A DNA stretch of 26,040 nt from a virus: positions 1 through 26,040 of the IMG/VR virus record IMGVR_UViG_3300044732_000144; one strand, written 5' to 3'. The notes under the pieces are model-generated. The model had not been told where the DNA came from. It worked only from the letters and a program-made list of their open reading frames with translations, and made no database searches. Of the stretch, positions 416 to 20,240 are shown piece by piece. Position 1 is the stretch's first letter. Every line of letters begins with the position of its first letter. The translations under genes and the position numbers were made by a program.

Positions 416-2302
416 ATGTCCGCGAAGAGTGGAGAAAACCATCACTTCACAGTACGGCGCGAACAGGACCAGGCTGCGTTCCTGGCCTCTGTAGCCTCTG
501 GAATTGACGAACATACTGCCCTCGGACTAACTGGTCGTAAACTGCCTGCGCTTAAGACTTGGCTCCGGGATGGGAAGTTTGCCTCGCGTCTAGAAGCCGC
601 GCGGACAGAATCCAATAAACTATACGGCGAGACTCTAGCCTCTGGCAAGAATATCGACTACGCCACGTTCTCCAAAGAGTTCCTGAACTCTGAGGTGTTC
701 CCACACCATCAGTCTTGGATTGACGTTCTAGAGGGTAACGAGCCTACCTACCTGCATGAGTCCATGACCTATGAGCCAGGCAATCGTCGCCGCTTGCTTA
801 TTAACGTACCCCCAGAACACGCTAAGTCCACAGTCCTAACTGTAGGCTATGCCGCCTACCGCATTGCTATGGACCCAAATATCCGTATTGTGGTAGTTTC
901 CCAAACTCAGGCTCGCGCCAAGGAATTCCTCTTCTCAATCAAGCAACGGCTCACCGAGCCTGCTTGGGCCAAGATGCAATCTGTCTACGGACCTGCTGGA
1001 GGCTACCAAGCCACCGCAGACCAGTGGACTCAGGATAGAATCTACCTAGAGCGCGACTCTGGCGAGAAGGACCCTACCGTACAGGCTATTGGTATGGGTC
1101 AACAGATTTACGGTACTCGTGCCGACCTCATCATCCTAGATGACGTTATCACTACTACCAACGCCCATGAATGGGAAAAGCAACTTAACTGGCTACAGAA
1201 GATGGTTATCACCCGTGTAGGTGCTACCGGTACCCTAGTTATTGCAGGTACCCGTGTATCCTCTATTGACCTATACAAAGAGATTCGTAACCCAGATAAC
1301 TGGTCTGGCGATAAGTCCCCATTTACCTACCTGGCTATGCCAGCGGTTCTGGAGTACGCCGACAAGCCAGAAGACTGGGTAACCCTATGGCCACACTCAG
1401 ACCGTGTATGGGATGGGGCAGACCCAGAGTACGACGCAGAACTTTTAGTACAGGATGAAAATGGATACTTCCCGAAGTGGGATGGCAAGCGGCTCTTCCA
1501 CCGCCGTAGTGAAGTTAACCCTTCTACTTGGGCTCTTGTATACCAGCAGCAAGATGTGGAAGAAGATGCAATCTTCCCACTTATCTCCGTTAATGCGTGT
1601 ATCAACCGCATGCGCAAGCCTGGTACTATCAAGCCCGGTACTCCAGGACATCCACGAGACGGACAATGGGTAACCATCCTAGGATTTGACCCAGCCATGG
1701 TAGGTAACTCTGCTATGGTAGCCTATGCCGTAGAACGGCAAACAGGTCAACGTATGGTTCTAGATGTGTTTAACATGACAGAACCAACCCCAGCAAAGAT
1801 TCGTAACCTCATTGAAGAATGGGTTACCAAGTATAACCCGATGGAACTGCGTATTGAAATTAACGCATTCCAAAAAGCCTTCGCGTTGGATGAAGACCTC
1901 CGTATGTGGCTTGCCAATCGGGGTGTCCGATTCAGTGAGCAATTTACTGGTAAGAACAAGTGGGACACAAACTTTGGTGTTGCTGGTATGTCAGGGCTAT
2001 TTGGTTCTATCCGTGAGGGTAAGCACCAAAACGATAACCTGATTGAACTACCAGATAATACGAATGAACACATCAAGGCTCTGGTTAACCAGTTAATTAC
2101 TTGGAAGCCAGACACCAAGAACAAGACCGACTGTGTTATGGCTCTTTGGTTCTGCGAACTTCGCGCTAAAGAACTTGTACAGCAATCAGGTAACAAGATT
2201 TACCATACATACAACAGGTACGCAACACGCCGTAATGATGCACAGCGAGTAGTCTTCGACTTAGACGAACTTGCTGCAGAACAATCATTACTCTACATTT
2301 AA
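416..2302 (+). CDS. Terminase large subunit (TerL) with N-terminal HTH
   Basis: This is the ATP-driven DNA packaging motor and nuclease of the phage head, 628 aa. Residues 131-140 carry the Walker A-type loop VPPEHAKSTV, and residues 238-244 the Walker B segment LIILDDV. LVIAGTR (274-280) fits the coupling motif. The C-terminal RNase H-like nuclease half begins near residue 420 (ILGFDPA), with candidate metal-binding residues Asp425, Glu481 and Asp572. Residues about 15-65 (from EQDQAAFLASVASGI to the charged helix ending SRLEAAR) look like the helix-turn-helix usually found in small terminase subunits. No separate TerS is seen. The start at 416 is supported by GAGG six bases upstream. The portal gene follows directly, as expected for this module. 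Confidence 0.95.
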   Translation: MSAKSGENHHFTVRREQDQAAFLASVASGIDEHTALGLTGRKLPALKTWLRDGKFASRLEAARTESNKLYGETLASGKNIDYATFSKEFLNSEVFPHHQSWIDVLEGNEPTYLHESMTYEPGNRRRLLINVPPEHAKSTVLTVGYAAYRIAMDPNIRIVVVSQTQARAKEFLFSIKQRLTEPAWAKMQSVYGPAGGYQATADQWTQDRIYLERDSGEKDPTVQAIGMGQQIYGTRADLIILDDVITTTNAHEWEKQLNWLQKMVITRVGATGTLVIAGTRVSSIDLYKEIRNPDNWSGDKSPFTYLAMPAVLEYADKPEDWVTLWPHSDRVWDGADPEYDAELLVQDENGYFPKWDGKRLFHRRSEVNPSTWALVYQQQDVEEDAIFPLISVNACINRMRKPGTIKPGTPGHPRDGQWVTILGFDPAMVGNSAMVAYAVERQTGQRMVLDVFNMTEPTPAKIRNLIEEWVTKYNPMELRIEINAFQKAFALDEDLRMWLANRGVRFSEQFTGKNKWDTNFGVAGMSGLFGSIREGKHQNDNLIELPDNTNEHIKALVNQLITWKPDTKNKTDCVMALWFCELRAKELVQQSGNKIYHTYNRYATRRNDAQRVVFDLDELAAEQSLLYI

Positions 2303-2309
2303 GGCTATC

Positions 2310-4091
2310 ATGCTAAGTATTGAACAAATCACAGGTAAGGTACTGTCCCTTCAGGACCGGTACTCTGCACGTGACCAGCGCATGCGAGATATTACTATGG
2401 TTCGCCGTGGTAACATGGAAGCAGTCTACCCAGACATGTTCCCTGAAGGCATCTCTAAGCCTATGATTGCTAACTTCTGTGACGTTGTGGCACGAGACCT
2501 AGCAGAAGTGTTGGCACCACTGCCATCATTTAACTGCTCAACTGTTAATAGCACGAGCGATTCCGCTCGCAAGGCTTCAGATAAGCGAAGCATGATTGCT
2601 AATAACTACGTTCAGAATTCTGGGTTACAGACCCAGATGTACACTGGAGCAGACTGGGCATTTACCTATGCCTACATGCCCATTGTTGTAGAGCCTGACT
2701 TTGAGGCTCGTATGCCACGCATTCGCATAGAAAACCCTATGGGTGCTTACCCAGAGTATGACCGCTATGGAAAATGTGTTTCATACACTAAGCGTTACTT
2801 GAAGACTATTCGCGAACTCATTGTTGATTTCCCAGAGTACGAATCACGTATCCTAGGTAAACTTGGCTTCAAAGACCAAGACCTAAACACCGAACTAGAT
2901 GTCATGCACTACCAGGATAAAGACCAAATCGTCATGTTCCTGCCACAGCGTGACTCGTTAGTGTTGCGTAAAGCAAAGAATCCTTTAGGCAAACTTGCTG
3001 TTGTCGTGCCTCGTCGCCCAGGTATTGATGTTGACGACCCACGTGGACAGTTTGATGATGTGCTATGGGTGCAGATTGCACGAGCACGCTTTTCCCTTCT
3101 GGCAATGGAAGCAGCCGAAAAATCAGTTCAGGCTCCTATTGTCGTTCCCCAAGATTTACAAGAGTTTGCATTTGGTCCTGATGCAATCCTTCGTACCAAT
3201 AACCCTGCAGGTGTACGCCGTGTAGGACTAGAACTACCTACCGGTGCATTTACCGAACAGCAGATTCTGGAAACAGAAATGCGTATGGGTTCACGTTACC
3301 CTGAAGGTCGCTCCGGAAACATTGATGCTAGTGTTATTACTGGCTCTGGTGTTCAGGCACTTATGGGTGGCTTTGATTCCCAAATCAAGGCTATGCAGAT
3401 GATTATCGGTGAAGCACTTGAAGAAGTAATTGCTCTTTGCTTTGAGATGGATGAGAAGTTATTCCCAGGCGAGAAGAAGCAACGCGGAACTTTTAATGGT
3501 GCACCGTATGAATTCAAGTATGACCCAGCAAAAGACATTGCTGGTGACTACACTATTCAGGTTCGTTACGGTCTTATGGCTGGACTTGACCCATCACGTG
3601 CACTTATCTTCTCGCTACAGGCTTTGCAAGCCAACCTAGTATCCCGTGATTTTATCATGCGAGAGTTACCATGGAGCATGAATGTTTCAGGTGAACAAGA
3701 GCGCATTGATATAGAGCGAATGCGTGATTCATTATCAGCATCGCTAGCGTCTTTAGCACAAGCAATCCCACAGATGGCTATGCAAGGACAAGACCCATCA
3801 GGTATTGTGGAACAAATTGCAAAGGTTATTGACCTTCGCCGTAAAGGTAATGCAATTGAAGAGGCAGTTGTTAAGGTATTTGAAAAACCAAAACCAGAAG
3901 CACAGCCTGCACAACCAGAAGTACCTGCGCAGATGTCACCAGAAGAACTGGTTGCTCAATCTATGGGTCAGGCTGCTGCCCCAGCAGAAGAACCAGAACC
4001 TCCGACCGAGGAACAAGTTTCGCCTGCAGGTCCTGCTGGGGGGCAACCGCCTATGGACTTGGCTGGAATCTTGTCACAACTTGGTGGATAA
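2310..4091 (+). CDS. Portal protein
   Basis: This is the probable portal, the dodecameric ring at the capsid vertex through which DNA enters and leaves. The frame is open from an ATG at 2271, but that start lies inside the terminase gene. The ATG at 2310, preceded by AAGG at 2301-2304, gives a clean 593-aa protein. The N-terminal part (GNMEAVYPDMFPEGISKPMI and following) and central region fit phage portals of the kind next to TerL. The last roughly 75 residues are rich in Pro, Gln and Glu, a disordered tail. Assignment rests on size, position right after TerL and overall character; no single catalytic motif exists for portals. It is followed two bases later by the Ntn-hydrolase gene. Confidence 0.85.
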   Translation: MLSIEQITGKVLSLQDRYSARDQRMRDITMVRRGNMEAVYPDMFPEGISKPMIANFCDVVARDLAEVLAPLPSFNCSTVNSTSDSARKASDKRSMIANNYVQNSGLQTQMYTGADWAFTYAYMPIVVEPDFEARMPRIRIENPMGAYPEYDRYGKCVSYTKRYLKTIRELIVDFPEYESRILGKLGFKDQDLNTELDVMHYQDKDQIVMFLPQRDSLVLRKAKNPLGKLAVVVPRRPGIDVDDPRGQFDDVLWVQIARARFSLLAMEAAEKSVQAPIVVPQDLQEFAFGPDAILRTNNPAGVRRVGLELPTGAFTEQQILETEMRMGSRYPEGRSGNIDASVITGSGVQALMGGFDSQIKAMQMIIGEALEEVIALCFEMDEKLFPGEKKQRGTFNGAPYEFKYDPAKDIAGDYTIQVRYGLMAGLDPSRALIFSLQALQANLVSRDFIMRELPWSMNVSGEQERIDIERMRDSLSASLASLAQAIPQMAMQGQDPSGIVEQIAKVIDLRRKGNAIEEAVVKVFEKPKPEAQPAQPEVPAQMSPEELVAQSMGQAAAPAEEPEPPTEEQVSPAGPAGGQPPMDLAGILSQLGG

Positions 4092-4093
4092 CC

Positions 4094-4615
4094 ATGACAA
4101 CAATTCTTGCCGTACAATACGACAATGGTTTCGTATTTGCAGCAGATAGTCAAGTCACTGCAAATGAACGCCCCTACATGCACAGTGATGTTAGAAAAAT
4201 CACCGAAGACGGTGATTATGTAATTGCTGGTGCAGGAAATGCGAGACTTTGTGATGTTGTCCAATATGGATGGAAACTACCTAGATACGATGGAACTGAC
4301 GGATACCGTTTCATGGTTAGCAAGGTTGTGCCAGAGATAAAGAGAGCCCATGATTCTACTGGGACTACTCTAGAAAAAGAAGATGGGTTTTCATTTCTCA
4401 TCGGTTTAGATAATAAGATTTACTACATTGCTGAAGATTACTCGGTACTACGTACCGATACAGGAATCTATGCAATGGGTACTGGCGGAGAACTTGCACT
4501 AGGTGCATATCATGCTGGTGTTACAATTAGACAAGCAATGCGAACTGCTATTAAGTTTGATGTTAATAGCGGTGGTAAAATACAGATTGTGAAACGAGGA
4601 AAGCAAAATGGCTAA
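4094..4615 (+). CDS. Proteasome/HslV-like Ntn hydrolase, candidate prohead protease
   Basis: This 173-aa protein has the layout of the HslV/20S proteasome beta-subunit family. It begins MTTILAV, so removal of Met would expose an N-terminal Thr nucleophile. The motif AADSQVT places Asp at mature position 17, as in HslV. VRKI supplies a Lys at mature position 34, near the catalytic Lys33. GTGGELALGA (129-138) aligns with the GSGG segment of HslV, and a late Asp (156) lies before the final strands KIQIV. The full-length match suggests an active peptidase. It sits between portal and capsid genes, where tailed phages place the head maturation protease. A role in cleaving scaffold or other head proteins is inference. 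A compartmental protease acting on host proteins is the alternative; no ATPase partner is seen. Confidence 0.8.
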   Translation: MTTILAVQYDNGFVFAADSQVTANERPYMHSDVRKITEDGDYVIAGAGNARLCDVVQYGWKLPRYDGTDGYRFMVSKVVPEIKRAHDSTGTTLEKEDGFSFLIGLDNKIYYIAEDYSVLRTDTGIYAMGTGGELALGAYHAGVTIRQAMRTAIKFDVNSGGKIQIVKRGKQNG

Positions 4616-5078
4616 ACAAGGTGGGTACCGTAGACCAGCCAATCCTGCTCCAGTTTCAGGACCTGGTAAGTTATCACGTCGTACAGATGGTGGACCATCT
4701 AGCAAGTCAGCAGTTCAGGGTGTCCGTGAGATGTCCGGTGGTGGCAAGTACGGCGAACGTAAGGCACTAGAAGAAGCACAGAGTGGTGCTCCTATGGCTG
4801 GTAACCCAGTTATGGGTGTAGCCCCTGCTATGGCTACCTCAGCCCCTGTTGGTGGACCAGCAACTGGTTTGTTTGACCCAAGTGAACGACCTAATGAACC
4901 AGTTACATCTGGTTTACCTGTAGGTCCAGGAAGAACTCCTGCACCTGCTATGACTGGCAACTATGACATGATTATGAAATATATGCCAGCACTAGAACTT
5001 ATGGCATCTCAAGAAGATGCACCAGAACCATTCAGAGCATTAGTAAACTACGTAAAGGTTACGGCAGAACAAGTATGA
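4608..5078 (+). CDS. Small Gly/Pro-rich virion-module protein, function unknown
   Basis: This 156-aa protein starts eight bases before the end of the Ntn-hydrolase gene. Its first half is basic and rich in Gly, Pro and Ser (MAKQGGYRRPANPAPV), the middle is Gly/Pro/Ala/Met low-complexity sequence, and only the last about 40 residues (MIMKYMPALELMASQED and on) look helical and folded. The disordered body with a short C-terminal helix would suit a linker, chaperone or protease substrate in head assembly. I do not recognise a named family. Translational coupling to the hydrolase suggests joint expression. Confidence 0.75.
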   Translation: MAKQGGYRRPANPAPVSGPGKLSRRTDGGPSSKSAVQGVREMSGGGKYGERKALEEAQSGAPMAGNPVMGVAPAMATSAPVGGPATGLFDPSERPNEPVTSGLPVGPGRTPAPAMTGNYDMIMKYMPALELMASQEDAPEPFRALVNYVKVTAEQV

Positions 5079-13021: not shown

Positions 13022-13066
13022 AGTGAGAGTGTACGTTCAAACAACAATGTAAGGGAGATGGTTGCG

Positions 13067-13558
13067 ATGAGCAACACAAATCAGGAATGGCTAGACGACG
13101 ATGAGTTAGATTTCGATGACTACTCAGATGAACCACAACGTGGTTCTGATGATGTGTTAAAGAAAGTCCGACGTGCAGAACGTGCGAAGGATAAGCAACT
13201 CAAAGAGTTACAAGCGGAATTGGAAAGTTTGCGCAAGTTCCAACGCGAAACTACAGTTAGCCAAGTCCTATCGGAGAAAGGCATTAATCCAAAGATTGCC
13301 AAATTTATTCCAGGTGATGTTCAATCACCTGAATCCATCAGTGAATGGTTGAAGGATAATGGCGAAGTCTTTGGGTTTACAGTGGAAGAACCTCGTACTG
13401 CTTTAGCGTCAGAAGACATTGCTGCACTACGACAAATGGAATCTGTAGCATCTAATGCTTACACTCCAGATGATGTTAACGATATGTTTAGCATCCTCAA
13501 CAATGCACAGTCGCAGGAAGAATTGTTAAATATTCTTTATGCTAACGGTGCAGAATAA
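13067..13558 (+). CDS. Scaffolding / capsid assembly protein
   Basis: This 163-aa protein lies immediately before the major capsid gene, where scaffolds usually are. The N-terminus is strikingly acidic (WLDDDELDFDDYSDE). It is followed by a charged coiled coil at about residues 28-65 (VRRAERAKDKQLKELQAELE) and a helical C-terminal half. This composition is typical of phage scaffolds, which form elongated helical dimers inside the procapsid. The frame also offers an ATG at 13058, but that codon touches the Shine-Dalgarno AAGGGAG (13051-13057). The ATG at 13067 has a normal 9-base spacer and is preferred. It would be a natural substrate for the Ntn hydrolase encoded upstream. Confidence 0.85.
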   Translation: MSNTNQEWLDDDELDFDDYSDEPQRGSDDVLKKVRRAERAKDKQLKELQAELESLRKFQRETTVSQVLSEKGINPKIAKFIPGDVQSPESISEWLKDNGEVFGFTVEEPRTALASEDIAALRQMESVASNAYTPDDVNDMFSILNNAQSQEELLNILYANGAE

Positions 13559-13591: not shown

Positions 13592-14602
13592 ATGGCTGTA
13601 ACAGGCTTATCGGGTGGTTCCGCCAATACCAATGGTGGTCTTGGTGGTGGACAGTATTCGTCCGCCAACAACGTCGGAACATTCACCCCATCCAACGGTG
13701 CAGGTCTAGTTCAGAAGGCATACGACCGCCTTATTGAATTTGAACTTCGCTCCACCCCATTGCTACGTTCAGTAGCAGACAAGAAGCCAGCACGTCAGGC
13801 AATGCCAGGTTCATCTGTAGCACTACAGATTTACAACGACATGGCAGTTGCTAAGAGCGTTCTGTCTGAAGAAGTTGACCCAGAGGCAATTGCTCTGTCA
13901 ACTCCAGATATCGTAACCGTTACTCTTAACGAATACGGTAATGCTACTCTTGTTAGCAAGAAACTTGGTCTTATGTCTCTAGCAGACGTAGACCCAGCAG
14001 TTGCTAACATCATTGCCTACAACATGGCAGATAGCATTGACGAACTAGCACAGGATGCATTACTAACAGGTACTAACGTACTTTATGCAACTGGTGGTAC
14101 AACAACCGCAACAACAACTTCAGGTATCACTTCAGATGACACACTATCTGCTGCTGACATCCGTCGTGCCGTTGCTAAGTTGCGTACTAACAAGGCTAAC
14201 GGTCGCAAGGGTTCACTATACTGGTGTGGCATCCACCCAGAAGTATCCCATGACCTTCGTGCCGAGACCGGTGCTGCTTCATGGCGTAACCCACACGAGT
14301 ACCAGAGCAATGATGCAATCTGGGCTGGCGAAATTGGCCAGTTTGAAGGTGCATACTTCATTGAATCTCCTCGTCTAAAGAAGGCTAACGATGGCGCAAG
14401 CAGCATTCCTGTTTACCGCACATTCCTAGCCGGACAGCAAGCACTTGCTGAGGCTGTTGCTGAAGAACCACACGTGGTTATCGGCCCAGTCGTTGACCGC
14501 TTGATGCGTCAACGCCCAATCGGTTGGTACGGTGTTCTAGGACACGCTATCTACCGTCAGGATGCGTTGTTCCGTATTGAGTCTGCTTCAAGCATTGCTT
14601 AA
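13592..14602 (+). CDS. Major capsid protein (N4-gp56-like, HK97 fold)
   Basis: This 336-aa protein has the features of the N4-gp56 major capsid family. A Gly/Ser-rich N-terminal arm (1-35) is followed by a helix (QKAYDRLIEFELRSTPLL), a loop region about 60-100, the strand TVTLNEYGNATLVSKKLG (109-126) and helices AAYNMADSIDELAQDAL-like around 141-158. A capsid P-domain with ADIRRAVAKLRTN (188-200) and conserved-looking WCGIHPEV follows. A good Shine-Dalgarno (AAGGA, 13581-13585) lies six bases before the ATG. Codons are rich in frequently used C-ending forms compared with neighbours, as expected for high expression. A terminator-like hairpin follows. The family name is from recollection of the pattern; the capsid role is secure from context. 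Confidence 0.9.
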   Translation: MAVTGLSGGSANTNGGLGGGQYSSANNVGTFTPSNGAGLVQKAYDRLIEFELRSTPLLRSVADKKPARQAMPGSSVALQIYNDMAVAKSVLSEEVDPEAIALSTPDIVTVTLNEYGNATLVSKKLGLMSLADVDPAVANIIAYNMADSIDELAQDALLTGTNVLYATGGTTTATTTSGITSDDTLSAADIRRAVAKLRTNKANGRKGSLYWCGIHPEVSHDLRAETGAASWRNPHEYQSNDAIWAGEIGQFEGAYFIESPRLKKANDGASSIPVYRTFLAGQQALAEAVAEEPHVVIGPVVDRLMRQRPIGWYGVLGHAIYRQDALFRIESASSIA

Positions 14603-15159: not shown

Positions 15160-16399
<1,240 letters not shown>

Positions 16400-16519: not shown

Positions 16520-17587
16520 ATGGTTAAGATTGCAGTCTATGCTATAGCAAAGAACGAGGCTAAGCACGTTAAACAATGGGTGGAAGCCACCAAAGGTGCA
16601 GATGTCCGAGTTGTCCTAGATACTGGGTCAGAAGATAACACCTATGACCTACTCCAGAAGTACCCCGTAGAAGCCCACAGAGCCACGCTAAGCGACTTTA
16701 GGTTCGATGTGGCTCGGAACATGGCACTAGATTTAGTGCCATCTGACGTGGATGTGTGTGTCTCCATTGACATGGATGAGGTTCCAGACCCAGACTTCTT
16801 TGACAAGATACGACAGGCTTGGCAGCCTGATACAACTCGTGCTTGGGTAATGTGGGATACAGGAAACATCTGGGCTAACAACAATCGTGTCCATGCTAGA
16901 CATGGATACAGGTGGCGTTATCCCTGCCATGAGGTTATCCACACAGATGGACCAGAGAAACTAATAGTCATTGAGACTTCTGCTACACACAAACCAGATG
17001 ATGATAAGTCTCGTGGTCAGTACTTGCACCTACTAGAACTAGGTCATGCTGAGGAACCGGACAACCATCGCATGTTGGTTTATCTTATCCGTGAGTATTA
17101 CTTCAAGGGTATGTGGCAAAAGATTATTGACCACGGTAAGAAGTTAGAACTTCAAACTGGTGGTTGGAATGTTGAACTTGCCCAGTCATGGCGAGCCGTG
17201 GGTGAGGCATACTGTAAACTTGGTAATGAACGTGAAGGTCTTTACTGGTATCAACGTAATGTTGAAGAAGCACCACTAGACCTAGAGGCTTGGATGCCTT
17301 TGGCTTTCTACTATTACGAACGTAAGATGTGGAACCACTGCTATCAAGCAGCAATTAAAGTAGAAGAACTTTCCCTTGAGTCATATAAACATTATGTGGC
17401 TGACCAATCAATGCCATGGAGAATGTACGACTTGCTCTCTCTTGCGTGTTGGAACCTTGGCAAGAAAGGTTCTGCTAAAAGATACGCACGTAAAGCAGTT
17501 GAACTTAATCCTAACAATGAACGTCTAGTTAAAAACTATGAGTTCATTATGACTCAAACTGCGAAGGACTATAAGAATGGCTTGTAG
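16520..17587 (+). CDS. GT2-family glycosyltransferase with C-terminal TPR repeats
   Basis: This 355-aa protein has a GT-A nucleotide-sugar domain in residues 1-160. AIAKNEAKHVKQW (8-20) and LDTGSEDNT (33-41) form the donor-site loops, and SIDMDEV (82-88) is the DXD-like metal site. CHEVIH (136-141) is the late conserved-looking His motif. Residues about 205-340 are helical repeats of TPR type (e.g. WRAVGEAYCKLGNEREGLYW, KKGSAKRYARKAVELNPNN). This architecture is known in protein or glycan glycosyltransferases related to SPBc2/SunS-like enzymes, where TPRs hold the acceptor. Placed just after the collagen-like fibre, it may glycosylate fibre Thr residues. Modification of host glycans is the alternative. 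It has only a weak ribosome site. Confidence 0.85.
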   Translation: MVKIAVYAIAKNEAKHVKQWVEATKGADVRVVLDTGSEDNTYDLLQKYPVEAHRATLSDFRFDVARNMALDLVPSDVDVCVSIDMDEVPDPDFFDKIRQAWQPDTTRAWVMWDTGNIWANNNRVHARHGYRWRYPCHEVIHTDGPEKLIVIETSATHKPDDDKSRGQYLHLLELGHAEEPDNHRMLVYLIREYYFKGMWQKIIDHGKKLELQTGGWNVELAQSWRAVGEAYCKLGNEREGLYWYQRNVEEAPLDLEAWMPLAFYYYERKMWNHCYQAAIKVEELSLESYKHYVADQSMPWRMYDLLSLACWNLGKKGSAKRYARKAVELNPNNERLVKNYEFIMTQTAKDYKNGL

Positions 17588-17855: not shown

Positions 17856-18611
17856 ATGGCATACAAACCAAGAAAAGATATTAAGGTTTCTGAATCATAC
17901 ATCCAGAAACTTCGTGATGCAGGTTCCAAAAAGGCTGCCCTAGAAAAGTACGGCAGTTCAAGTGACCCTAAGATGCGTGAAGCATTGCGTCGTTTTTACG
18001 GTGCTAGTGCACCTGCTCCAATGAAAGATTCTAGTCGTACTGTTGCTAGAACTCTACCGAAGAAGAGCATTCCAATGAAGACTGTTGCACAGTCAAAGCC
18101 TTCTCGTACTGGTATTGCTCCAAAAAGCAAGACTGCAACCAAGTCAACTAAGCCAGCATCAAATGAAACCATAACTATGGGTTCTCGTACTGGTGGAAAA
18201 ATTACTGTTAATAAAGCCGCTAACGAAAAGCGCAAGGCAGAATTTGAAAAGCGCACGAATCGTGCTTTGACAGTTGCATCTCTTATTCCAGCGGTTCGTG
18301 CTGGTCGTGCAGTTGCTACTGGTGCAAAGGTGGCAAGTGGTGTTTCTAAGGTAAAGGGTACCGCAAAGTACTACGGTGATGCTGCAAAGAACATTTCCAC
18401 TCGTGCTCAAAAAGCAGGAGAGATGCGTAGCACACAGCAAGCAGTTGCTGCTGCTAGCAAGAAGAAGGCTAGTGGATTACAAGGTGCTGCTACTCGTGCA
18501 AAGAATGCTAAGGCTGCAGAGAAGGCAAGACTGGAGCGTAACGCTAAGGCTGCTGCTACTCGTAAGCGTAATGCTGCTGCTGCTAAGCGTGCAGGTAAGG
18601 CTGGTAAATAA
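17856..18611 (+). CDS. Histone H1-like Lys/Ala-rich basic protein
   Basis: This 251-aa protein has a good Shine-Dalgarno (AAGGAAAA, from 17845). The N-terminus (MAYKPRKDIKVSESYIQKLR) may form a small folded unit, followed by a Lys/Ser/Pro-rich linker (about 55-105). A short Ala/Val-rich stretch lies near 140-165 (LTVASLIPAVRAGRAVATGA), and the C-terminal tail (about 195-251) is dominated by Ala, Lys and Arg (e.g. AKAAATRKRNAAAAKRAGKA). The tail resembles histone H1 and bacterial H1-like proteins, which bind DNA non-specifically. It heads a row of six small, mostly basic proteins. A DNA-condensing virion or early-infection role is inference. Confidence 0.75.
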   Translation: MAYKPRKDIKVSESYIQKLRDAGSKKAALEKYGSSSDPKMREALRRFYGASAPAPMKDSSRTVARTLPKKSIPMKTVAQSKPSRTGIAPKSKTATKSTKPASNETITMGSRTGGKITVNKAANEKRKAEFEKRTNRALTVASLIPAVRAGRAVATGAKVASGVSKVKGTAKYYGDAAKNISTRAQKAGEMRSTQQAVAAASKKKASGLQGAATRAKNAKAAEKARLERNAKAAATRKRNAAAAKRAGKAGK

Positions 18612-18949
18612 TGCCAGGTCAACGTCAAATAGGTGGCGGTAAAGGTTCCGGTGGAGGAATGCGCACCGGTGGAGGTAGTGGTAAAGCAGGCAAGCCTAAG
18701 TCTAATGTTACTAAGATTGGTAGCAAGAAGCCAATGAGTGCTGCTGAGCAGAAGGCTCGTGTCAAAATTGACCGAATCAAAAAGTCTCCTGCTGCTGAAG
18801 ATATTCGCAAAGGCAATCTAGATAATCTAAGAAAAACATATGGACTATCTCCACAAAAACCTAAAGTAACTCGCAAGAACAACTCACCATTTGGTCCAGT
18901 TGCTGCAGGTATTGTAAAGACTAAGCCAAAGCCGAAGGGTAAGAAATAA
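18611..18949 (+). CDS. Basic Gly/Lys-rich small protein, 112 aa
   Basis: The start overlaps the previous stop (TAATG). The first 30 residues are Gly-rich with Arg/Lys (QRQIGGGKGSGGGMRTGGG), like an RGG/GK-type flexible nucleic-acid-binding tail. The middle (about 43-80) can form a charged helix (AAEQKARVKIDRIKKSP). The C-terminus ends in alternating Lys-Pro (TKPKPKGKK). No enzyme or metal motif is present. It is probably a disordered nucleic-acid-binding protein; the evidence is composition and neighbours only. Confidence 0.7.
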   Translation: MPGQRQIGGGKGSGGGMRTGGGSGKAGKPKSNVTKIGSKKPMSAAEQKARVKIDRIKKSPAAEDIRKGNLDNLRKTYGLSPQKPKVTRKNNSPFGPVAAGIVKTKPKPKGKK

Positions 18950-19101
18950 TGTGTGCAACATGTGGATGCAATCACAAGAACTACCAGCACGAAATGCCTA
19001 AGATGCCAGGTTCCTACAAAGGTATTGACAAAGTAAACTACAACATGCCGAAGGTACCAGCAGTTCCTGCTATGCCTAAGTCAACCAAGAAGGGTAAGTA
19101 A
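18949..19101 (+). CDS. 50-aa protein with N-terminal Cys cluster and PKM-rich tail
   Basis: This gene is coupled by a TAATG overlap to the preceding one. The product is MCATCGCNHKNYQHEMPKMP followed by GSYKGIDKVNYNMPK and a Pro/Lys/Met tail ending STKKGK. Cys 2, 5 and 7 with His 9 form a compact potential metal site. The rest is basic and probably disordered. Gene density, coupling and absence of another frame support it. It fits the basic-protein row by its tail but differs by its metal-site-like head. Function is unknown. Confidence 0.7.
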   Translation: MCATCGCNHKNYQHEMPKMPGSYKGIDKVNYNMPKVPAVPAMPKSTKKGK

Positions 19102-19102
19102 C

Positions 19103-19555
19103 ATGGCAATGAAACCAGTAAAGCCAAAGGTAATGGCCAAGCCAAAGCCACGTAAGCCAGTAGAAAAGCCAAAGGCTCCACGTGGTAGCAAGACTGATAA
19201 ACAAATGGGTGATATGAATCAACGTGAATCATATAACGCTAAGCGTGATGCAAACAATAAAGTAGTTGCAAAGTACGCTCCACTTAAAGTTAATACCAGT
19301 GCAGATAAAGTTAGCAAATCAAGTACTGGTGTAAAAGTAAAAGGTGAAACACCTCGTTACTCTATGCACAAAGAAGTTTTGGCTGCACGTAAAAAGCGCA
19401 ACGAACAACGCGCTGGTGGCAAAGTAGGAGTTACAAGTGCAGGTAAGTCTAATCCTAAAAAGCGACCTGCAGGCACAGGTGGTTCTATGCCTAAGTATAT
19501 TCCAAGTGCAAAAGCAGTAAAAAATACAATAAAAAAGTCACAAAGAAGTAAGTAA
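19103..19555 (+). CDS. Very basic Lys-rich protein, 150 aa
   Basis: It starts one base after the upstream stop. It opens with MAMKPVKPKVMAKPKPRKPV, an almost uninterrupted Lys/Pro/Arg stretch, then has a central region with QRESYNAKRDANNKVVAKYA. It ends in Lys-rich sequence (KAVKNTIKKSQRSK). Acidic residues are few, so net charge is strongly positive. There is no signal peptide, membrane segment or catalytic motif. It is protamine- or histone-tail-like in composition and is likely to bind nucleic acid or a negatively charged capsid interior. No family is recognised. Confidence 0.7.
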   Translation: MAMKPVKPKVMAKPKPRKPVEKPKAPRGSKTDKQMGDMNQRESYNAKRDANNKVVAKYAPLKVNTSADKVSKSSTGVKVKGETPRYSMHKEVLAARKKRNEQRAGGKVGVTSAGKSNPKKRPAGTGGSMPKYIPSAKAVKNTIKKSQRSK

Positions 19556-19557
19556 TC

Positions 19558-19845
19558 ATGGTAGCAAAGAAGGACCCACGACTAGCACGTGCAGGTGTTT
19601 CTGGCTACAACAAGCCAAAGCGTACACCTAATCATCCAAAGAAGTCACACGTAGTTGTGGCTAAAGTTGGTACTGAGGTTAAGACTATTCGCTTTGGTCA
19701 GCAGGGTGTGTCTGGCTCTCCTAAGAAATCAGGAGAGTCAGCATCCTATGCTGCACGTAGAAAGTCATTCAAAGCACGTCACGCATCTAATATTAACAAG
19801 GGTAAGATGTCCGCAGCATACTGGGCAGACAAGGTTAAATGGTAA
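19558..19845 (+). CDS. Small basic phage protein, 95 aa, conserved-looking
   Basis: This protein looks folded rather than simply basic: DPRLARAGVSGYNKPKRTPN, then a strand VVVAKVGTEVKTIRFGQQG. It ends with ASYAARRKSFKARH, SNINKGKMSAAYWADKVKW. The RRxSFxARH and SAAYWADKVKW segments resemble small, widespread but uncharacterised phage proteins with conserved Arg, His and Trp residues. It is basic overall. I recall this type from metagenomic phages but cannot name a function. It lies between two further basic proteins. Confidence 0.75.
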   Translation: MVAKKDPRLARAGVSGYNKPKRTPNHPKKSHVVVAKVGTEVKTIRFGQQGVSGSPKKSGESASYAARRKSFKARHASNINKGKMSAAYWADKVKW

Positions 19846-20240
19846 TGGCTTACACCAACCCTGCTAAACGAGAAGCACTTAAGAAAAAGATTATGGCTAG
19901 TTCCAAAGGTGGTAAGCCTGGTCAATGGTCTGCTCGTAAAGCACAACTACTTGCACAAGAGTACAAGAAGTCTGGTGGTGGATACTCCGGTCCTAAGACT
20001 TCTAAACAGAAGTCCCTATCCAAGTGGACTAAAGAAGACTGGGGTACTAAGTCAGGTAAGCCTAGCACTCAAGGTAGCAAGGCTACAGGTGAACGCTACC
20101 TACCCAAGAAAGCCAGAGCAGCCTTAACTGCCGAAGAGTACAAGAAGACCTCTGAGGCTAAGCGCAAAGGCACTAAGGCTGGTAAACAGTTTGTTAAGCA
20201 ACCAAAAACTATTGCAAAGAAAACGGCAAGGTATAGATAA
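19845..20240 (+). CDS. DUF5872-like basic protein, 131 aa
   Basis: The frame opens at 19839, but the ATG at 19845 overlaps the previous stop (TAATG) and gives the natural N-terminus MAYTNPAKREALKKKI. A first module (to about residue 48) carries GGKPGQWSARKAQLLAQEYK. The second carries SKWTKEDWGTKSGKP, ATGERYLPKKARAALTAEEY and RKGTKAGKQFVKQP, which I tentatively match to the DUF5872 family of phage and algal-virus proteins. The Lys/Arg content is very high. Possible roles are DNA binding inside the particle or on host DNA. Family name is moderate confidence; function is unknown. Confidence 0.75.
   Translation: MAYTNPAKREALKKKIMASSKGGKPGQWSARKAQLLAQEYKKSGGGYSGPKTSKQKSLSKWTKEDWGTKSGKPSTQGSKATGERYLPKKARAALTAEEYKKTSEAKRKGTKAGKQFVKQPKTIAKKTARYR

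Follow-up and report, generated by a model that had tools for sequence, protein, structure and literature searches.

A proteasome-like Ntn hydrolase gene in an exchangeable slot beside the portal gene of a podovirus lineage: probably an accessory protease, not an obligatory head-maturation enzyme

Homologues of the proteasome have already been described in phages, both by Fuchs, Alva and Lupas (2021) and as the phage protein family PHROG_1040. Fuchs et al. report the group-I homologues PPH, AAH and CPH in phages, and name for them neither an AAA+ partner nor any hint of function; they found no actinobacteria-specific phage with AAH (PMC8665760). In Alteromonas phage V22, a gene called 'proteasome-like' is grouped with protein catabolism (PMC7289586). 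Salmonella phage pSal-SNUABM-04 has two genes for HslV and none for HslU, alongside three distinct genes for prohead proteases (PMC7823757). Another close system is BPH (5ovs, 5ovt, 5ovu), which has neither a propeptide nor an unfoldase and binds epoxomicin, and for which no activity was obtained in vitro (PMC5777263). In the open-licence PMC literature, we found no paper that puts a role of such phage homologues in head maturation to the test. The protein described here, P0001, adds another member to this group.

P0001 is encoded in a stretch of viral DNA of 26,040 nucleotides, called the window below. Its gene is a complete ORF on the plus strand, running from ATG to TAA and encoding 173 aa. 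The original prediction, made from the letters alone, placed a gene here between the portal and the scaffold/capsid genes; the ORF is real, and its immediate neighbors are the genes for the portal and for a 156-aa protein, p156. The head-gene region of the window contains the following features:

416..2302, plus strand: terminase large subunit (phrog_38, E 2.8e-63)
2271..4091, plus strand: portal protein, the upstream border of the slot (phrog_104, E 5.6e-30)
4094..4615, plus strand: proteasome-like Ntn hydrolase (PHROG_1040), 173 aa, with Thr2 as predicted nucleophile once Met is removed (profile, structure model, conservation)
4608..5078, plus strand: p156, 156 aa, the downstream border of the slot, present with and without the protease (phrog_8200, E 4.3e-18)
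13058..13558, plus strand: scaffold-like acidic protein, pI 4.3 (phrog_7813, of unknown function, and phrog_3760, head scaffolding)
13592..14602, plus strand: major capsid protein of the N4-gp56 family (TIGR04387, 117 bits against a cut-off of 60; phrog_1357)

The protease gene is tightly packed between its neighbors. Only 2 nt separate the portal stop from its start, and its 3' end overlaps the start of the p156 gene by 8 nt; the sequence upstream of the p156 ATG is GAGGAAAG. The listed TTG start of the portal gene runs into the terminase gene, and the true start is likely a later ATG. The protease gene is under purifying selection, with dN/dS of about 0.06-0.14 in the 4 unsaturated pairs of the 5 computed. 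Downstream of the capsid gene, the window also encodes a 301-aa protein with 25% glycine and a long collagen-like Gly-X-Y stretch (15494-16399), a glycosyltransferase-like protein (16520-17587; phrog_13126, moron category, E 3e-77) and five adjoining small proteins with pI 10.5-11.3 and 24-27% Lys+Arg (17856-20240), which are possibly DNA-binding virion proteins.

P0001 belongs to the Ntn hydrolases of the proteasome/HslV type, and its active site looks intact. It matches the Pfam Proteasome family (PF00227) at 27.6 bits, above the cut-off of 22.4, with the best stretch limited to residues 2-50, whereas the match to PHROG_1040 ('peptidase HslV family', E 3.1e-33) extends from residue 1 to residue 171. 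At E values up to 0.1, no other Pfam or PHROGs family was found, and no known prohead protease family in either collection. A profile of 52 sequences was also compared with PDB sequences. This set contains P0001 and 51 relatives that are 20-92% identical; it was restricted to complete ORFs of 150-200 aa with an ATG start and a match starting at query residue 1, which left 196 loci; clustering at 93% brought these down to 47, and five sequences were added, one of which (L278) has a GTG start. P0001 stands in the set in place of its identical copy L002. The top match was BPH (5ovu, E 6.8e-14, residues 2-173), followed by HslV and 20S beta subunits. Designed dTor toroids, with repeats that each score 3-6.5 bits, also came up and were set aside as chance matches.

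The structure check proposed in the original prediction, against HslV and 20S beta subunits, came out in favor of the Ntn fold. An AlphaFold2 monomer model built from the 52 diverse sequences has pLDDT 92.2 and pTM 0.88; an earlier model from 22 close sequences (P0001 and 21 of 27 representatives) had pLDDT 44.5 and was discarded. In Foldseek, the top match of the model is again BPH (5ovs, E 1.4e-10), and the VIA Z scores for BPH 5ovt (18.2; 163 residues aligned, 2.8 A), HslV 4hnz (18.1) and Anbu (17.8) are tied. The model shows an Ntn beta-sheet core with flanking helices at 50-59, 70-88, 132-140 and 145-155; no helix is inserted among its first strands.

Residues T2, D18, K35, P63, G129, G131 and A135 are invariant in all 52 sequences, and G48 is conserved in 50, with Ala in the other two. 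Since the set was filtered for ATG starts, nothing can be concluded from the constant M1. The HslV/proteasome layout that had been read from the sequence holds well: the protein starts with MTT, Thr2 corresponds to mature Thr1, Asp18 to mature position 17, and Lys35 to mature position 34, where it aligns with Lys33. The GTGG motif claimed at 129-132 is present as well, at those positions in full-length and not in mature numbering; position 130 is Thr in 34 of the 52 sequences and Ser in 18. A methionine in front of a threonine is expected to be removed, and removal of Met1 would expose the catalytic threonine. T2, D18, K35 and G48 are the equivalents of Thr1, Asp17, Lys33 and Gly47 named in PMC8665760.

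Comparison with the known groups places P0001 near BPH. The two share Thr1, Asp17 and the lysine, the lack of a propeptide and the lack of a known ATPase, and BPH is the best match by both profile and structure. However, P0001 is only 18-23% identical to BPH, is phage-borne and, in the alignment, is shorter in the insert that precedes the strand after the second helix. The failure to obtain activity from BPH in vitro counts against reading P0001 as an active protease. With HslV, P0001 shares the fold, the Thr-Thr start of the mature chain and the active-site layout. Its scores nevertheless lie far under the curated HslV cut-offs (31.7 bits against 137 for NF003964; 30.3 against 157.75 for TIGR03692), so it is not HslV, and an HslV equivalog was rejected on these scores and on the absence of a cognate HslU ATPase from the phage records. 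The score against the archaeal 20S beta family is also below its cut-off (TIGR03634, 23.4 bits against 224). Like AAH, PPH and CPH, for which no AAA+ partner is reported (PMC8665760), P0001 is a group-I-type phage homologue. PPH, however, is about 140 aa long and is described without helix H2, whereas P0001 has 173 aa and four helices; it is therefore not PPH. The proteasome-like family also contains the ligase connectase (PMC8665760), which raises the possibility that P0001 uses its Ntn fold for a different reaction, for example as a specific peptide ligase or as an amidase. We regard this as very improbable, given the four flanking helices, the lack of a helical insertion among the first strands, and BPH and HslV as nearest relatives.

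The host of the lineage is very probably an actinobacterium, judging from gene content and cultured relatives. Of the 22 related records, 21 carry WhiB (PF02467), and only the window itself does not; among 14 control genomes, the profile was matched only in Corynebacterium. The closest cultured phages are Streptomyces podoviruses, with 46-48% identity in the portal protein and about 52-55% in the capsid protein; FlowerPower and Manuel are classed in the Beephvirinae. Together, the WhiB content and these relatives suggest an actinobacterial host. Scans of bacterial genome contigs for relatives of the protease used short patterns and are therefore weak: the first, with the 22-sequence set, found none, and the second found one contig (L285) from a gammaproteobacterial MAG. 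In addition to the protease relative, L285 carries phage-like genes, and inspection by eye suggests that it encodes a WhiB-like protein as well as a metallophosphoesterase. It is probably a misbinned actinophage contig.

No HslU/Clp-type ATPase (AAA_2) was matched in 16 phage records including the window and record G001, while the same profile gave a match in all 14 control genomes. The general AAA profile (PF00004) gave weak matches of 19-27 bits, 12 of them above the cut-off, in 14 of the 16 records, the two without a match being the window and FlowerPower. In the window, which the original prediction described as having no HslU/Mpa-like ATPase, neither profile gave a match. The weak PF00004 matches occur in carriers of the protease and also in the non-carriers G009, G011 and G019. 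Judged by position, the match of G001, like those of G012 and G017, belongs to a 260-aa ORF resembling a DnaB-like helicase (it is the G001 protein that was scanned), and we read it as a helicase P-loop and do not count it as an unfoldase. Many Actinobacteria possess a proteasome. The phage enzyme might pair with an AAA+ unfoldase of the host, such as Mpa/ARC or one of the Clp ATPases, or it might co-assemble with the host proteasome, and so redirect the degradation of host proteins. The absence of an HslU/Clp-type ATPase from the 16 records, the helicase nature of the AAA matches where inspected, with and without the protease, the inferred host and the proteasome of Actinobacteria, which PMC8665760 mentions in general terms, would all suit such a partnership. 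However, the nearest structure, BPH, lacks a partner unfoldase and does not conserve the HslU-interface residues (PMC5777263), and P0001 stays far under the curated cut-offs for HslV and for the archaeal 20S beta subunit. On balance, we consider this partnership unlikely.

The original prediction assigned P0001 to maturation of the phage head, and the genomic slot between portal and p156 offers a comparison that bears directly on this idea. The position is very stable wherever the gene is present, which would also suit a virion-linked role. In a ct2KA10-like search (best 80 of 144 loci), where the proteins are only about 35% identical to P0001, the portal gene lay upstream and p156 downstream in 75 of 80 loci; four of the others were cut by contig ends and one was unrecognised. 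The same arrangement was seen in 122 of 134 loci, repeated contigs included. From a further search, the best 80 of 374 rows were kept.

Contigs were gathered through the capsid protein, independently of the protease, and the best 80 of at least 598 capsid relatives were kept. The capsid gene and p156 were not both visible in 29 of the 80 loci, which were left out of the slot count. In the remaining 51 contigs, some near-copies included, the slot holds the protease in 34, an unrelated acidic ORF of 81-85 aa in 13 and nothing in 3, with 1 unjudged. Of the 50 contigs that could be read, 16 thus have no protease in the slot. Two rows are weaker: L091 is cut by a contig end, and the slot ORF of L085 shares no more than 45% identity with the 83-aa family. 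The replacing family is represented as follows:

L032:638-889: acidic slot ORF (83 aa) of the 81-83-aa family; others in L037, L038, L039, L045, L073, L075, L076, L084, L086, L089 and L098

This 83-aa ORF was never found together with the protease in 193 loci. The L032 copy matched no Pfam or NCBIfam family above cut-off and none in PHROGs, and tblastn found no match in the phage collection. It could be a functional stand-in for the protease.

The capsids of genomes with and without the protease at the slot are up to 94.6% identical, and such pairs align across the N-terminal 36 residues with few changes. For example, the capsid of the window (to which the L079 copy is identical) and that of L032 share 94.3% identity over 336 residues, and their Gly/Asn/Ser-rich N-termini are nearly alike. 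Such near-identical capsids with and without the protease favor an accessory role. An obligatory prohead protease would be expected in every genome that builds the same head module; this gene is missing from some of them. On the capsid tree, the protease state changes at least 5 times, with 3 changes forced by strongly supported branches, whereas the scaffold and p156 trees require only 3 and 4 changes, respectively (all trees are quick trees without bootstrap). Scaffolds of gene-minus and carrier genomes are at most 74% identical. The few changes on these two trees and the divergence of the scaffolds are consistent with a possible scaffold- or p156-directed role in carriers. As for p156, which had been proposed as a substrate, it is also found in genomes without the protease, which speaks against that suggestion.

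Absence from the slot can mean absence from the genome. PHROG_1040 was matched in 16 of 33 full records and in none of them twice; the other 17 had no match. Seven records of 37-41 kb (G006, G009, G010, G011, G014, G019 and G022) have no match anywhere. Three of these have terminal redundancy (G011, 100 nt, exact; G019, 123 nt with 2 mismatches; G009, 216 nt with 23 mismatches), suggesting that they are complete; none was found in G006 and G014. Among the empty-slot contigs, the third (L071, 24.8 kb, record G013) also has no PHROG_1040 match and may be a fragment. One carrier record, IMGVR_UViG_3300042567_000108 (L249), has one protease match and at 79 kb is about twice as long as most long relatives; it is possibly chimeric. 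FlowerPower and Manuel share the order of terminase, portal, p156 and capsid genes with the window, the scaffold being recognised weakly; their slot contains three small ORFs, and neither of these two Beephvirinae has a match to PHROG_1040. Their relative Abafar forms plaques and has icosahedral podoviral particles (PMC11536984).

In two other records with an empty slot, G012 and G017, a homologue of 174 aa, about 20% identical to P0001, is found among the genes for replication and regulation and is read from the other strand than the structural genes. In G017 it is flanked by a gene for a DnaB-like ATPase and an unidentified 165-aa ORF, and in G012 it adjoins a sigma-like gene; these neighbors were named by eye, from their similarity to scanned proteins of G001. 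The divergent protein was located at:

L110:6506-7030: divergent proteasome-like protein, 174 aa, replication module, late slot empty
L111:7857-8381: divergent proteasome-like protein, 174 aa, replication module, late slot empty
L275:3507-4028: divergent proteasome-like protein, 174 aa

Its best matches in the phage collection include proteins annotated as 'peptidase HslV family' in a Moorella phage and 'proteasome subunit' in Vibrio phages. P0001 matches PHROG_1040 over residues 1-171 and several phage homologues carry that annotation, but unlike the gene of the window, the members in the cultured phages WaterT, Pumpernickel, Hum25 (an Arthrobacter phage) and DSL-LC01 do not lie between portal and capsid genes. 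The Pumpernickel homologue adjoins ThyX, that of DSL-LC01 adjoins WhiB, and that of Hum25 lies at the right end. In the Microbacterium phage WaterT, the homologue is found upstream of the terminase gene, outside the head genes, and a separate protease adjoining the portal matches phrog_15531, 'head maturation protease'.

The original prediction had pointed to a separate classical prohead protease elsewhere in the genome as evidence against its own reading. None of the searched families occurs in the carriers, and WaterT does have such a protease besides its homologue. Among 14 records, phrog_15531 was matched in WaterT only, and this match is the one working phage control. ClpP (PF00574) and S49 (PF01343) gave no match in any of the 14 records, WaterT included. 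The S78 profile (PF04586) matched no classical prohead protease and also missed the annotated capsid maturation protease of WaterT, which makes it a weak test. The searched families are absent from carriers and non-carriers alike. The N4-gp56-type head of this podovirus lineage may need no classical protease; if so, there is perhaps no vacancy for a proteasome homologue to fill.

Taken as an explanation in its own right, a dedicated maturation protease would trim the scaffold, the capsid protein, p156 or a large internal protein inside the prohead. The stable place between portal and p156, the lack of the searched classical families in carriers, and the scaffold tree with only 3 state changes and at most 74% scaffold identity across states agree with it. 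Against it stand the capsids of up to 94.6% identity, closely similar at the N-terminus, in genomes without the gene at the slot; the two Beephvirinae and three terminally redundant genomes that lack both the gene and the searched classical proteases; the divergent homologue of G012 and G017 in the replication module; and WaterT, with its homologue outside the head genes and a true capsid protease besides. On the slot that is otherwise filled or empty, the relocation and WaterT, we reject head maturation as the main role, and a dedicated enzyme of the head or virion appears quite unlikely.

The above observations are best explained if P0001 is a proteasome-like accessory protease encoded in an exchangeable late slot, probably ring-forming and independent of an ATPase, and not an obligatory head-maturation protease. 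We give this reading a probability of about 0.72. The accessory gene, flanked by those for portal and p156 within the late operon of podoviruses with actinobacterial hosts, would be expressed late. After removal of Met1, the subunits would probably assemble into rings, whose enclosed active sites may cleave small or unfolded polypeptides, and a dedicated ATPase would not be required. The most likely targets are proteins of the host or of the phage itself, cleaved inside the infected cell at a late stage. A bolder possibility, which we consider unlikely, is that the lineage swaps proteasome-like proteases between the late portal slot and an early one among the replication genes, with dosage or timing tuned against host proteins or proteasome-linked control of the host. 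In carriers, the late form may then also enter the virion or process ejected proteins.

Proteasome homologues are widespread in phages (153 records), and the literature we found assigns them no function. Cultured carriers include Microbacterium and Arthrobacter phages, and with the clade of the window, assigned by its WhiB content, proteasome-like genes are present in several actinobacterial phages. In this clade, near-identical capsids are combined with the protease, an unrelated ORF or nothing in one and the same slot. This is a natural experiment, and the comparison of presence and absence makes the choice between a head protease and an accessory protease directly testable.
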